A stretch of 64,000 nucleotides of DNA from Buttiauxella gaviniae ATCC 51604. Lineage in GTDB: Bacteria; Pseudomonadota; Gammaproteobacteria; Enterobacterales; Enterobacteriaceae. Shown piece by piece: positions 23,610 through 54,688 of the stretch (positions within the stretch are counted from its first letter, which is position 1; the number at the start of each line of letters is the position of its first letter). The translations under genes and the position numbers were made by a program. The notes beneath the pieces were generated by a model. That model ran no database searches. It saw only the letters and a program-made list of their open reading frames with translations, and was not told where the DNA came from. The stretch is from the NCBI RefSeq assembly GCF_001654835.1, contig NZ_LXEP01000008.1, positions 124,001 through 188,000 on the forward strand, read 5' to 3'.

Positions 23610-25154
23610 ATGAAAAGTGCCGTTAATGCCCTACAAAACTTCGGAAAATCGCTCTACGGCCCAGTACTTATTTTACCCATCGTCGGTTTATTTATCGCGT
23701 TTGGTAATGTATTGGGCAATGGAAACCTGGCCGAGTACTTACCGTTCCTCGGTCACTCTTCTATTCAGCATACGGGTGTGCTGATCGCTAAATCTGCCGT
23801 TTCGGTACTGGCAAACCTGGCTCTGGTGTTTGGCGTTGGGATCCCAATTGGCCTTGCTGCAAAAGACAAAGGATATGCAGCATTGATTGGCCTGGTCACT
23901 TTTATCGTCTTCATTAATGCGATGAATGTAACGTTGCAATTGCAGGGCGAATTAGCACCTGCCGACCAAATGCGGGCCGCTGGGCAAAGCATGGTTTTAG
24001 GTGTGCAAGTGCTTGAGATGGGTGTTTTTGCCGGGATACTGACCGGGGCGCTTTCAGGATATCTGTACAACCGCTATTCCAGCGTACAGTTTTCTGGCGC
24101 GATGGCCATTTACTCCGGCCACTGTTTTGTCGCCATTATTATACTGCCGGTTTCAATGTTGCTTGGCGTGGTGATGAGTGAACTCTGGCCATTTGCTCAG
24201 CATGGTATCAGCGCACTGGCGCTGGCTATTAAAGGTGCCGGGGCATTTGGCGTTGCCATCTACGGTTTCCTGGAGCGCATTCTGGTGCCAACGGGTCTAC
24301 ATCACCTTGTTTATACCCCATTCCTGTATACCGAATTAGGGGGGACTGCCGATGTTTGCGGCAGCGTTTACCAGGGCGCGCGCAATATTTACTTCGCAGA
24401 AATGGCATGTCCGAGCGTCCATCAACTTAGCAGCACCGTTGTTTGGGATGCACGCGGCATAAGCAAAATGTTCGGCCTCCCTGCTGCGGCCCTTGCGATG
24501 TATATGACGGCGAAACCTGAGCGCAATGCAGCAGCCAAAGCCATTCTCATCCCGGCAGCCCTGACATCCATGCTGGTTGGTGTTACGGAGCCACTGGAGT
24601 TTTCCTTCCTGTTTGTCGCCCCACTGCTGTTCGGCGTGCATGCGGTACTGACTGGTATTGGCATGATGCTGTTCTATCTGCTGGGCGTTCACGCCATCGG
24701 TGCCAACGGAATTATCGATTTCATTCTCTATAACCTGCCGCTTGGCACCGAGAAGTCCAACTGGCCGATGTACATCGCGGTCGGGCTGGTGATGTCGGTT
24801 ATCTATTTCTTGGTGTTCCGTTTCCTGATTCGCCGTTTCGATATGAAAACGCCGGGGCGTGAGAGTGATGACCAGGAGACAAAACTGTATAGCAAACAAG
24901 AGTATCAAGCCAAAGGCAGCAACGATGGCTTGGGTGAAGCGATTATCGAAGGCCTCGGTGGCCGGGCCAATATTGAAGTAGTCGACAACTGTTACACCCG
25001 CTTGCGAGTCACGGTGCGCGATGTGTCAGTTATCGACGAACCCCGCCTGAAATCAACGGGTGCGAAAGGGGTCATTAAACAAGGTAATAACGTTCAGGTG
25101 GTCTACGGGCTGCATGTCAAAAAAATGCGTGAAGCAGTAGAGACATTTCTCTAA
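23610..25154 (+). CDS. PTS alpha-glucoside-type permease, EIICB
   Basis: The 514-residue product is a phosphotransferase permease with an N-terminal EIIC membrane domain (about residues 1-415; YGPVLILPIVGLFIAFG, FLERILVPTGLHHLVYTPF, GVTEPLEFSFLFVAPLLFGVH) and a C-terminal EIIB domain with the phosphocysteine at residue 461 (NCYTRLRVTVRD). It lacks an EIIA domain, so it probably takes phosphate from the glucose EIIA (Crr). The EIIC signature and the GH4 gene 8 nt downstream point to alpha-glucosides such as maltose, palatinose or sucrose isomers (compare Klebsiella AglA). The exact sugar cannot be read from sequence. Confidence 0.88.
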   Translation: MKSAVNALQNFGKSLYGPVLILPIVGLFIAFGNVLGNGNLAEYLPFLGHSSIQHTGVLIAKSAVSVLANLALVFGVGIPIGLAAKDKGYAALIGLVTFIVFINAMNVTLQLQGELAPADQMRAAGQSMVLGVQVLEMGVFAGILTGALSGYLYNRYSSVQFSGAMAIYSGHCFVAIIILPVSMLLGVVMSELWPFAQHGISALALAIKGAGAFGVAIYGFLERILVPTGLHHLVYTPFLYTELGGTADVCGSVYQGARNIYFAEMACPSVHQLSSTVVWDARGISKMFGLPAAALAMYMTAKPERNAAAKAILIPAALTSMLVGVTEPLEFSFLFVAPLLFGVHAVLTGIGMMLFYLLGVHAIGANGIIDFILYNLPLGTEKSNWPMYIAVGLVMSVIYFLVFRFLIRRFDMKTPGRESDDQETKLYSKQEYQAKGSNDGLGEAIIEGLGGRANIEVVDNCYTRLRVTVRDVSVIDEPRLKSTGAKGVIKQGNNVQVVYGLHVKKMREAVETFL

Positions 25155-25162
25155 AGGAGTCA

Positions 25163-26530
25163 ATGATGTTTAAACCCCCATTTATTTTGTCCATTGCCGG
25201 TGGCGGTAGTACTTACGCGCCGGGCATTGTTAAAAGCCTGATGGTTCGCCTGGCTGATTTCCCCTTAGCTGAGATTCGCCTCTACGATATTGATGGTGAG
25301 CGCCAGTCAGTGATTGCGCCGGTGGTTGAGAAAGTCATTCGCGACCATAGCCAAAGCATAAAATTCACCGTAACTACTGACCCAGAAGTTGCCTTTAGTG
25401 GTGCCCATTTTGTCTTCGCACAAATGCGCGTCGGGCAATATAAGATGCGTGAGCAGGATGAAAAAATCCCTCTACGCCATGGTGTGGTTGGGCAAGAAAC
25501 CTGCGGGCCAGGCGGCCTGGCATATGGCCTGCGCACCATTTTGCCTATGGTCGAGTTATGTGATTTTGTTGAGCGTTACGCCCATCAAAAAGCGTGGATT
25601 GTGAACTATTCCAATCCGGCGGCAATTGTTGCTGAAGGGGTTCGTCGTCTGCGCCCGAAAGCTCGCGTGTTAAATATTTGCGATATGCCGGTGGCGGCAA
25701 TGCGCAATATGGGTGCCATTCTTGGGGTTGATCGCCACAAGCTGGAAGTCGATTACTTCGGCCTGAACCATTTCGGCTGGTTTACCCGCGTGCTGGTTGA
25801 TGGAGAAGACCGCCTGCCGGAGCTGCGCCGCCATATCGCTAAGTTTGGCCTACTGACAGAAGATGCCGCACAAACCGATCCGCAACATTCCGACCCGTCA
25901 TGGGTGAAAACCTGGCGTCACATTAAGCCGATTATGGACCATTTCCCGGAATATCTGCCGAACCCGTATTTGCAGTATTACCTAATGCCAAACGACATCG
26001 TTGAGCACCAAAACCCTGATTACACTCGTGCCAACGAAGTGATGGATGGGCGCGAGAAGAAGCTGTTTGCAGCGGCGGATGAATACAAAAAAACCGGGAT
26101 TTTGCCGGACGCATTCCATGTTGGCGTACACGGTGCCTTTATTGTTGATGTCGCTTGTTCACTGGCCTTTGATTTGCGCCAGCGTCACCTGGTGATTGTG
26201 GAAAACAAAGGGGCGATTGCCAACCTGCCGTATGACGCAATGGTTGAAGTCCCGGCTTATATCACTTCCGAAGGGCCAGAACCGGTACGCATGGGTGCGG
26301 TTCCACTGTTCCATCAGACATTATTGATGCAGCAGCTAGCTTCAGAACAATTGCTGGTCGAAGCCACTATCGAAGGCAGTTATGAAAAGGCATTGCAGGC
26401 GTTTACGCTCAACCGCACCGTGCCTACTATGCAACATGCAAAAGCGATTCTCGACGATATGATTGAAGCTAATCGCGATTACTGGCCGCAACTGCAACAG
26501 GCCTGGAAAGATGGCGAGGCTGTGAAATAG
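25163..26530 (+). CDS. 6-phospho-alpha-glucosidase, glycoside hydrolase family 4
   Basis: GH4 enzymes cleave phosphorylated glucosides by an NAD+- and Mn2+-dependent redox mechanism. The 455-residue product has the NAD-binding AGGGSTYAPG at the N terminus, the GVVGQETCGPGG loop, Cys173 in ICDMP and His203 in LNHFGW, which bind the metal. It resembles AglB/GlvA proteins, so it should hydrolyse the phosphorylated sugar delivered by the adjacent permease. ATGs occur at 25163 and 25166; AAGGAG at 25154-25159 is better spaced for the second (6 nt), giving 454 residues. No terminator follows before sseA. Confidence 0.9.
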   Translation: MMFKPPFILSIAGGGSTYAPGIVKSLMVRLADFPLAEIRLYDIDGERQSVIAPVVEKVIRDHSQSIKFTVTTDPEVAFSGAHFVFAQMRVGQYKMREQDEKIPLRHGVVGQETCGPGGLAYGLRTILPMVELCDFVERYAHQKAWIVNYSNPAAIVAEGVRRLRPKARVLNICDMPVAAMRNMGAILGVDRHKLEVDYFGLNHFGWFTRVLVDGEDRLPELRRHIAKFGLLTEDAAQTDPQHSDPSWVKTWRHIKPIMDHFPEYLPNPYLQYYLMPNDIVEHQNPDYTRANEVMDGREKKLFAAADEYKKTGILPDAFHVGVHGAFIVDVACSLAFDLRQRHLVIVENKGAIANLPYDAMVEVPAYITSEGPEPVRMGAVPLFHQTLLMQQLASEQLLVEATIEGSYEKALQAFTLNRTVPTMQHAKAILDDMIEANRDYWPQLQQAWKDGEAVK

Positions 26531-26562
26531 TTTTGCAATAAATACGAGGCACCTCGCGCACC

Positions 26563-26641
26563 TGGACATGGTTGCTTGTCGGTTTGGTGAAAAACACCGA
26601 CAATCCGAGAGTAAATAACGATTCGGAGGCAACCATGTCCA
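26563..26641 (+). promoter_or_regulatory. Predicted three-way-junction RNA covering the sseA ribosome site
   Basis: A perfect 13-bp inverted repeat (26563-26575 and 26629-26641) closes a 79-nt segment whose 3' arm contains the sseA ATG (26635). Inside are an 8-bp hairpin (TTGTCGGT 26576-26583 / ACCGACAA 26596-26603) and a 5-bp hairpin (TCCGA 26604-26608 / TCGGA 26623-26627) that takes in part of the GGAGG ribosome site. The helices abut almost without unpaired bases. If formed in the mRNA, translation of sseA would be off until the fold is opened. The structure is read by eye; its function is inference. Confidence 0.5.
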
Positions 26642-27489
26642 CCACTTTCTTCGTTGCGGGCGACTGGCTCGCAGAACATATTAATGATGAGAACATCCAG
26701 ATTATTGATGCTCGCATGGCACCAGCTGGTCAGGAACATTTACGTGATATGCAGGCTGAGTACCGTGCCGGCCATCTGCCTGGCGCAGTGTTTTTCGATA
26801 TCGAAGCCCTTTCCGACCACACCAGCCCTTTACCACATATGATGCCGCGTGCTGAAGCCTTTGCTGTCGCCATGCGAGAGCTGGGTATCAGTAGTGATAA
26901 ACATCTGGTTGTTTACGATGAAGGCAACCTGTTCTCCGCACCGCGGGCATGGTGGATGCTGCGTACTTTCGGCGTTGAAAGTGTGTCGATTCTGGCTGGT
27001 GGCCTGGCCGACTGGCAGCGTGAAGAACTGCCTCTACAGCAAGGTGATGTTGAATTGCCGGAAGGCGATTTCGACGTGAATTTCGATCCAATGGTGATTA
27101 AGCGCCTGACCGATGTTCTGCTGGTTAGCCATGAAGGCACTGCGCAGATTGTTGATGCTCGCCCTGCTCCACGTTTTAACGCACAAGCGGATGAACCTCG
27201 TCCTGGTTTAAGGCGTGGGCATATTCCAGGTGCGCTGAACGTACCCTGGGGCGATCTGGTAGAAAATGGTCAGTTGAAAACTACCGATGAACTGAGTGAA
27301 ATCTTTACCCGCCAGGGCGTGAGCTTTGATAAACCGATTATCGCCAGTTGCGGTTCAGGCGTAACAGCAGCAGTGGTGGTATTGGCGTTAACCACGCTTG
27401 GCGTTAACGGTGTTTCATTGTACGACGGCTCCTGGAGTGAATGGGGAGCACGACCGGATTTACCCGTCGAACCTGCTCAAGCACAGTAA
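26635..27489 (+). CDS. sseA: 3-mercaptopyruvate sulfurtransferase
   Basis: SseA transfers sulfur from 3-mercaptopyruvate to cyanide or thiol acceptors in the cytoplasm. The 284-residue protein has two rhodanese domains: an inactive N-terminal one (ending in ILAGGLADWQ) and a catalytic C-terminal one with the active cysteine at residue 239 in CGSGVTA, the loop sequence of mercaptopyruvate enzymes. The frame extends upstream to 26572, but the ATG at 26635 follows GGAGG and matches E. coli (MSTT). In E. coli it directly follows the yfhM side; here the permease and GH4 genes come between, and its stop overlaps the next regulator start (TAATG). Confidence 0.95.
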   Translation: MSTTFFVAGDWLAEHINDENIQIIDARMAPAGQEHLRDMQAEYRAGHLPGAVFFDIEALSDHTSPLPHMMPRAEAFAVAMRELGISSDKHLVVYDEGNLFSAPRAWWMLRTFGVESVSILAGGLADWQREELPLQQGDVELPEGDFDVNFDPMVIKRLTDVLLVSHEGTAQIVDARPAPRFNAQADEPRPGLRRGHIPGALNVPWGDLVENGQLKTTDELSEIFTRQGVSFDKPIIASCGSGVTAAVVVLALTTLGVNGVSLYDGSWSEWGARPDLPVEPAQAQ

Positions 27490-28262
27490 TGGACAACCGA
27501 CTGGCAGGTCTTCTTGAGCGCGGGGAATCTTTAACCCGCGCTGAATACCGCGTTCTCTCGCACGTGACAAACCACCCATTGCTGGTAGGTAATATCACGG
27601 TGCGGGAACTTGCTCAGGTGACTTTTGTTTCCAGCGCCACCATTATGCGACTGTGCCAGAAGCTCGGATTTAGCGGTTACAGCGAGTTTATCTGGCATTG
27701 TAAGCAGCTACTTTCCAGCACCCCGCACATTGCTAACCAACCTGCTCAGTCCACCAGCGAACTGCCGGTTTTATTTGATCAGTTTGTCGATAATTACCGC
27801 CAGACTTTCCGTTGGGTCACGCCTGAACTGATGGCGGAGTTTGCGACATTACTGCGGGAAAAAGAGAGTTTCTTTTTGTACGGAGCCGGGTTTTCTTATT
27901 TATTCGCGGAATACCTGACCAAGAAACTTCAGGTGTTGGGGAAAACGGCGTTTATTTCCGGGCCGGGCGACAGTCGGGGCATCTTTTTAAGTAACGCCTC
28001 AAAGTATCAGGTGTTTGTCGCCATTTCTCGCAGCGGTGAAACAGAGCAAGTATTGGATAAGGCGCGGGTCGCGCAAAATGTGGGGATGTCGATTGTGGCG
28101 TTCACGCGAGCATCGCCAAACAGTTTATCCGAACTGGCTGATGTGCATTTTCCGCTGTATGACGAGGCAATCCACTATGCGGCAGAAGCCGCCGGGATCA
28201 CTTCATTTGAGTCGAATCTGGTGATGCTGATTGATTTATTGCTGTTGCAGGCAACAGCATAA
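27489..28262 (+). CDS. RpiR/MurR-family transcriptional regulator
   Basis: The 257-residue protein has an N-terminal helix-turn-helix domain (GNITVRELAQVTFVSSATIMRLCQKLGFSGYSEF, split here as its first and last parts, about residues 33-70) and a C-terminal SIS sugar-phosphate domain (about 115-245; FLYGAGFSYLFAEYL, AISRSGETEQVL). Such proteins commonly control nearby sugar-phosphate genes, so the likely targets are the permease and GH4 genes at 23610-26530, with a phosphorylated glucoside as effector. The ATG at 27489 overlaps the sseA stop by one base; the longer frame from 27441 only runs inside sseA. It ends 4 nt from the convergent sseB. Confidence 0.85.
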   Translation: MDNRLAGLLERGESLTRAEYRVLSHVTNHPLLVGNITVRELAQVTFVSSATIMRLCQKLGFSGYSEFIWHCKQLLSSTPHIANQPAQSTSELPVLFDQFVDNYRQTFRWVTPELMAEFATLLREKESFFLYGAGFSYLFAEYLTKKLQVLGKTAFISGPGDSRGIFLSNASKYQVFVAISRSGETEQVLDKARVAQNVGMSIVAFTRASPNSLSELADVHFPLYDEAIHYAAEAAGITSFESNLVMLIDLLLLQATA

Positions 28263-35705: not shown

Positions 35706-35820
35706 TGCTCTTAAACTCCGTACATCACTCAATGCAATGAATCAGGCAACTGGCTGAATGAACGACCTTTTTGACGGGATGTGACACCCCGGCCTGATTC
35801 TGAAATCTATTTTATTTTTG

Positions 35821-54485: not shown

Positions 54486-54688
54486 GAAACAACAAAGGCA
54501 GAGAATAATCTCTGCCTTTGTTTTGGAATCAGGCGGTGCCTTACTCAACGTTTCGCCCGGAGCATGATAAAGCAGTACAAGACTGGCAATAATCAAAAGT
54601 CGGACGGCAGGCACCTTGAGTGCATCATTCTATGGTTTATGTAGCACAACCCTTGCGGGGGCAGACATAAGGAGGTGAATGAGCCACT
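54486..54688 (-). ncRNA. glmY: Small regulatory RNA GlmY
   Basis: GlmY sequesters the adaptor RapZ, sparing GlmZ so that glmS mRNA is translated when glucosamine-6-phosphate is low. Read leftward from 54688, the 5' end AGTGGCTCATTCACC, a stem with TTATGTC ... TGCTACATAAA, matches E. coli GlmY closely. The RNA ends in a strong hairpin (AAAGGCAGAGA / TCTCTGCCTTT, 54520-54493) followed by a broken T-run. About 200 nt is slightly longer than in E. coli. It lies between purL and glrK, the E. coli position. The ORF of 65 codons that overlaps it is not a gene. Confidence 0.9.

Follow-up and report, generated by a model that had tools for sequence, protein, structure and literature searches.

What purpose could be served by an arrangement in which the start codon of a gene is able to pair with the sequence lying directly upstream of its own promoter? 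We encountered this question at sseA of Buttiauxella gaviniae, which encodes a 3-mercaptopyruvate sulfurtransferase and stands between two sugar-use genes and an rpiR-type gene, all on the same strand of the window (the whole stretch of 64,000 nucleotides that was analysed). Positions of the genes and of the elements discussed below are collected in Table 1.

Table 1. Genes and sequence elements around the sseA start region of B. gaviniae (positions within the 64-kb window)
Feature	Position	Strand	Remarks
aglA-like PTS EIICB gene	23610-25154	+	Pfam PTS_EIIC, PTS_EIIB; first of upstream pair
aglB-like family 4 glycosyl hydrolase gene	25163-26530	+	Pfam Glyco_hydro_4, Glyco_hydro_4C
5' arm of fold	26563-26575	+	directly upstream of -35; pairs with 26629-26641
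Putative -35 element TTGTCG, sseA promoter	26576-26581	+	within 5' strand of inner 8-bp hairpin
Inner 8-bp hairpin	strands 26576-26583 / 26596-26603	+	
Putative -10 element GACAAT	26599-26604	+	overlaps 3' strand of inner hairpin (26596-26603)
5-bp hairpin	26604-26627	+	TCCGA 26604-26608 / TCGGA 26623-26627
Predicted transcription start	26611, +/- 2 nt	+	placed from -10 position; 24-nt leader
Ribosome-binding site GGAGG	26625-26629	+	read from sequence
3' arm of fold	26629-26641	+	holds sseA ATG (26635)
sseA, 3-mercaptopyruvate sulfurtransferase	26635-27489	+	NF008557 equivalog, 536.9 bits (cut-off 250)
rpiR-type regulator gene	27489-28262	+	Pfam HTH_6, SIS

The fold over the sseA start region

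A preliminary description made from the letters alone had reported a perfect 13-bp inverted repeat whose 3' arm contains the sseA ATG and which encloses an 8-bp and a 5-bp hairpin. A mechanical repeat search recovered the 13-bp arms, which match at 100%, and the 8-bp hairpin, and the 5-bp hairpin can be read from the sequence. The description was also correct that the second hairpin takes in part of the ribosome-binding site (the GGA of GGAGG lies within 26623-26627, the TCGGA strand of TCCGA/TCGGA) and that 52 of the 79 nt are paired, as we count 26 pairs. The arms are 53 nt apart and surround the shared inner hairpin. Folding of 26553-26661 gave -44 kcal/mol with a z score of -4.7, and none of 200 shuffled sequences folded as well. 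The window contains no second perfect inverted repeat of 13 bp at an arm spacing of 20-80 nt, the expectation per Markov-shuffled window (n = 40) being a mean of 0.05 and a maximum of 1. With the ribosome site and the ATG both buried in the predicted fold, such a structure would, as previously supposed, block translation.

No Rfam family scored above its cut-off at the sseA leader, where the best local match was the microRNA family MIR2617 at 23.7 bits (cut-off 46.5), and no curated Rfam family of riboswitches or RNA thermometers matched there. In the whole window only the GlmY sRNA (54530-54688) and the iscR stability element (35707-35813), both on the minus strand, exceeded their cut-offs. 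When 26480-26900 was compared with E. coli, similarity in the best five matches listed began at the sseA ATG and left the leader unaligned. We also observed a CGAG-N4-CTCG inverted element at 26545-26556, upstream of the sseA promoter and terminator-like on the minus strand, which was seen again by eye in several genera, with aglB present or absent.

A putative promoter inside the fold

The preliminary description overlooked that the inner hairpin is also a -35/-10 pair: the putative promoter TTGTCG-N17-GACAAT coincides with it and recurs before sseA in most relatives examined, and on sequence grounds the 8-bp hairpin has the appearance of a promoter for sseA. Of 189 loci, 184 have a 17-nt spacer; among these, TTGTCG occurs in 96 of the 102 with aglB upstream, whose -10 boxes are GACAAT (83) or AACAAT (19), and GACAAT is the -10 box in 60 of the 82 others, these counts being partly built in because our promoter finder favours the TTGTCG-N17-GACAAT pattern. 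A consensus promoter scan with a threshold of 9 of 12 matches misses the putative promoter, which scores 8 of 12. The promoter-like box usually lies about 30 nt before the ATG. Pantoea-type loci carry TTGAGA-N17-GACACT or GAAACT, in which the promoter positions are kept and the palindrome is gone.

The predicted transcription start would place the 5' arm outside the sseA transcript. As each of the three helices has its 5' strand upstream of this predicted start, the three-way junction could not form in the primary sseA mRNA, and the 5' arm is apparently to be expected solely in RNA running in from aglA-aglB. This speaks against the metabolite, protein, sRNA or temperature switch on the sseA mRNA that had been proposed for the fold, as does the lack of an Rfam family above cut-off. 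The preliminary description had further suggested that a 16-codon ORF beginning in the 5' arm encodes a leader peptide. The frame exists (ATG 26568, TAA 26616) but the role is not borne out by conservation: among ten Buttiauxella leaders the ATG is present in eight, and ATG and uninterrupted frame together in seven (lost in three), and by eye no ribosome site could be recognised within 12 nt upstream of the ATG in any of the ten.

In three lineages a repeat that we take to be ERIC-like separates the sseA -10 box from the ribosome site (L020, which is Buttiauxella genome G001, at about 1545-1675, and also L040, L210 and L044), so that the native mRNA leader there would begin with the repeat. 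A similar repeat precedes sseA in L250 and L172.

Genes on either side of sseA

The 5' arm begins 32 nt after the aglB stop codon, and no terminator-like site was found on the plus strand in 26400-26700. We presume that agl is the fitting name for the two upstream genes; a sugar substrate is not part of this naming, and the aglA-like protein scores below cut-off against the NCBIfam IIBC models for glucose, maltose and alpha-glucoside. The SseA protein shares 95% identity with its B. brennerae counterpart. Downstream, the rpiR start codon overlaps the sseA stop codon (TAATG, 27487-27491). The rpiR-type gene, which is probably a regulator of the sugar operon, adjoins sseA in all 83 aglB-upstream loci with enough downstream DNA (duplicates kept), with its start overlapping or abutting the sseA stop in 79 of them, and in two of 49 other loci (L201 and L046). 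Translation of this probable sugar-operon regulator may be coupled to that of a sulfurtransferase gene under the control of the sseA promoter.

Covariation of the arms in relatives

To the preliminary proposal that the arms be compared in related genomes we can answer that they covary at loci where the next gene upstream is aglB, read in the same direction and no more than 250 nt away. We computed the duplex energy between X, the 16 nt upstream of the -35 element, and Y, positions -12 to +12 of sseA, and compared it with a null in which Y was swapped among haplotypes. Relatives comprised 32 of the 80 loci of one set (L060-L090 and L105; the other 48 are more distant) and, in a second set, 30 loci plus 40 more from 111 matches, the remainder being the most distant. 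For Buttiauxella the set (A1) covers 11 genomes out of 12, G001 being excluded for its insert. Duplicated loci, and leaders in which an insert separates the -10 box from the ribosome site, were left out of the counts (L001, L020, L021, L030, L031, L032, L040, L044, L172, L210, L219, L230, L238 and L250), and 12 further identical leaders were removed before the covariation test (189 to 177). Kosakonia and Kluyvera groups were named from records with identical leaders, and genus g144 is probably Enterobacter.

With aglB upstream (94 loci, 64 haplotypes) the arms' own pairing was -11.86 against -10.26 when swapped (p = 0.0001). Relatedness inflates some of the p-values given here, and they are imperfectly calibrated, since shifted control windows without aglB reach p = 0.0015 and 0.044. 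Where aglB was not upstream (83 loci, 75 haplotypes) the arms did not covary (p = 0.63). The signal persisted when Buttiauxella was removed (84 loci, 56 haplotypes, p = 0.0001) and when both Buttiauxella and g144 were removed (35 loci, 30 haplotypes, p = 0.0024), and it was present within g144 (49 loci, 26 haplotypes, p = 0.0001) and within Buttiauxella (10 loci, 8 haplotypes, p = 0.0145). Kosakonia showed no arm covariation (12 haplotypes, p = 0.43) and gave p = 0.028 for one control pair; in Kluyvera, with four haplotypes, the null had no spread. Taking one locus per genus with aglB upstream gave a median p of 0.005 (14 genera, range 0.0002-0.137), or 0.026 without Buttiauxella (13 genera, range 0.001-0.21), and one locus per clade with aglB absent gave p = 0.50 (43 clades). 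The three shifted control windows by genus gave p = 0.46, 0.55 and 0.14 with aglB upstream and, adding the third value to the two above, 0.21 with aglB absent; by haplotype they gave 0.24, 0.97 and 0.29 with aglB and 0.034, 0.57 and 0.003 without.

Several other comparisons bear on the arms. Permuting clades across the full set of 100 distinct leaders, with aglB present or absent, gave p = 0.18, and pair counting in 11 Buttiauxella leaders found one double-changed pair, a result matched by 143 of 500 shuffles. Nine loci labelled as co-directional without aglB gave p = 0.10, the label being taken from the longest ORF and wrong for L016. An extension of helix 2 into the promoter spacer did not covary with aglB upstream (p = 0.47) and gave a weak signal with aglB absent (p = 0.014). 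In nine Buttiauxella leaders conservation was 0.86 in the 5' arm against 0.70 and 0.68 in the two flanks.

Compensatory changes and losses of aglB in one genus

sseA is present in 60 of 61 g144 genomes, and 59 leaders were counted. On the sseA tree of this genus X4 changed to G on five branches, each time with a change of Y4 from A to C. Y4 = C spans 23% of the tree length, so that five of five by chance has a probability of 0.0006 as a simple product; because the L198 and L228 leaders are near-identical, four independent events is a safer count than five. The sequences suggest that the compensation arose four or five times independently, L198 and L228 perhaps representing one event. L220, inside one of the five compensated clades, has an uncompensated T at X4, and uncompensated Y4 = C arose twice, in the clade of L182, L201, L203, L204 and L231 and in L226, a locus that lacks aglB upstream. 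The coupling calculated from double-change cycles was -6.1 to -8.1 kcal/mol.

Four g144 loci have a long divergent frame and no aglB in the 1.4-1.5 kb upstream, and their arms are weaker: the arm scores are -7.2 (L206), -6.2 (L225), -9.9 (L226) and -8.2 (L247), against a median of -12.6 in g144 loci with aglB (n = 53, counted before duplicate removal; p = 0.0011). L226 and L247 sit side by side on the tree and could go back to a single loss, so that the four loci represent three or four losses. L206 retains a remnant resembling the end of aglB and differs from L185 in three 5'-arm bases, the rest of the 30 nt before the -35 element and the promoter being identical; its sister on the tree, L228, has aglB and a compensated arm. 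In L201 and L232 about 1 kb is inserted between aglB and sseA, and the arms score -10.1 and -10.6. The L201 insert carries a small co-directional ORF that appears bacteriocin-like by eye.

Predicted cost of opening the ribosome site

We computed the cost of opening positions -13 to +6 of sseA and define the gain as the difference between read-through and primary RNA. For B. gaviniae (G000) we predict a cost of 21.3 kcal/mol for read-through RNA against 4.7 for the primary mRNA, and across the ten Buttiauxella loci with aglB upstream the gain is 6.1-17.6 kcal/mol. In the sole Buttiauxella species without aglB in the examined stretch (G011, with ndk and rlmN divergent upstream by eye and no rpiR downstream) the gain is 1.5 and the 5' arm pairs at chance level. 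The gain was higher in 94 aglB-upstream loci than in 83 others (p = 2.6e-8) and also by genus (14 with aglB against 43 without, p = 0.011); the clade-level test without Buttiauxella gave p = 0.099 (7 against 40 clades). The median gain in g144 is small, at 1.6 kcal/mol, and the mean is negative in three of 14 genera. Support for the strong form of the fold is best in Buttiauxella and a small number of other genera.

Discussion

We consider it somewhat probable, at roughly 0.55, that the fold is a read-through silencer, or fold-back insulator, of sseA. sseA would be transcribed from a promoter of its own, with the inner hairpin made up of its -35 and -10 boxes, and this mRNA, lacking the 5' arm, would be translated freely. 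Polymerase reading through from aglA-aglB would make a long RNA with both arms, in which the fold would cover the ribosome site and start codon, so that sseA would not be made from that transcript. rpiR would be silenced too, through its start codon overlapping the sseA stop. With both genes silent on read-through RNA their levels would stay tied to the sseA promoter, and the benefit would be that sseA and the probable regulator are independent of sugar-gene induction.

Two alternatives would account for the complementarity of the arms in other ways. Template switching between near-inverted arms, which the promoter palindrome could bring together, may have copied one arm onto the other and left a functionless palindrome, and a TT to GG difference in L089 that makes an 11-bp stretch perfect would agree with such copying. 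We nevertheless think this unlikely, because the haplotype shared by L180, L198, L221 and L228 has a compensated base beside an uncorrected bulge that templated copying should also have removed, and because arms are weaker where aglB is absent and covariation is limited to aglB-upstream loci; even as the origin of the arms, template switching leaves the link between pairing and an upstream aglB unexplained. Alternatively, the start of the sseA mRNA might be bound in trans by the agl mRNA through its 3' end, or by an sRNA processed from that end, which would give equal covariation and equal dependence on aglB. This seems quite improbable, given that two arms separated by 53 nt, with the inner hairpin shared between them, favour pairing in cis and that no Rfam sRNA family matches the leader.

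There are two further alternatives. The TTGTC/GACAA symmetry found in many genera might mark the binding site of a dimeric regulator, an operator in place of the promoter that we propose; the near-constant 17-nt spacing, the usual distance from the ATG and the promoter-like, non-palindromic versions in Pantoea-type loci make this very improbable. A switch within the sseA mRNA itself would agree with a ribosome site and ATG hidden by the fold, but is highly improbable with the 5' strands of all the helices upstream of the predicted start, with loci lacking aglB pairing their arms no better than chance, and with no Rfam match above cut-off.

The proposed silencer has parallels in known systems. 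In fold-back inhibition of the IS10 and IS50 transposases, outside transcripts fold over the ribosome site and transcripts from the element's own promoter do not; unlike the sseA locus, IS10 and IS50 are mobile elements. For lysozyme gene e of phage T4, PMC3014915 describes a helix over the ribosome site in long upstream transcripts, with poor translation (a reported 100-fold reduction), and transcripts from late promoters a short way before the ribosome site, which are without the 5' strand and are translated well; the same paper describes I-TevI of the T4 td intron, whose ribosome site is hidden in read-through RNA and whose expression rises when the promoter-proximal 5' part of the structure is deleted. 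Gene e resembles what is predicted for sseA, an occluded long RNA and a free short RNA without the 5' strand, and the computed fold of the long sseA RNA pairs the ribosome site and start codon. Gene e is a phage gene under temporal control, whereas sseA is chromosomal and lies beside sugar-use genes; moreover, unlike in gene e, the -35 and -10 boxes of sseA themselves make up the inner hairpin, and the pairing of the arms tracks whether the upstream gene is present. I-TevI shares the read-through RNA with a hidden ribosome site that we propose for sseA, but is an intron homing endonuclease with no operon boundary. In the open-licence PMC literature searched, judged by titles and the opening lines of abstracts, we found no description of an sseA arrangement of this kind, and nothing on sseA together with aglB.

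If the silencer reading is correct, a gene with its own promoter could stay independent inside another operon without a terminator, the read-through RNA being untranslatable. It would also supply a search rule, namely complementarity between the sequence just upstream of the -35 element and the start region of a gene with a co-directional gene upstream, and relatives with and without the upstream genes would serve as natural experiments. More tentatively, and with less confidence than we place in the silencer itself, we suggest that an RNA insulator evolved around the promoter of a gene lodged in a sugar operon, that several genera of Enterobacteriaceae keep the read-through-silencing arms for as long as the sugar genes are found upstream and lose the arms once these genes are gone, and that sseA may represent a bacterial chromosomal class of translational insulator that could be found genome-wide by comparing promoter-upstream sequences with start regions.
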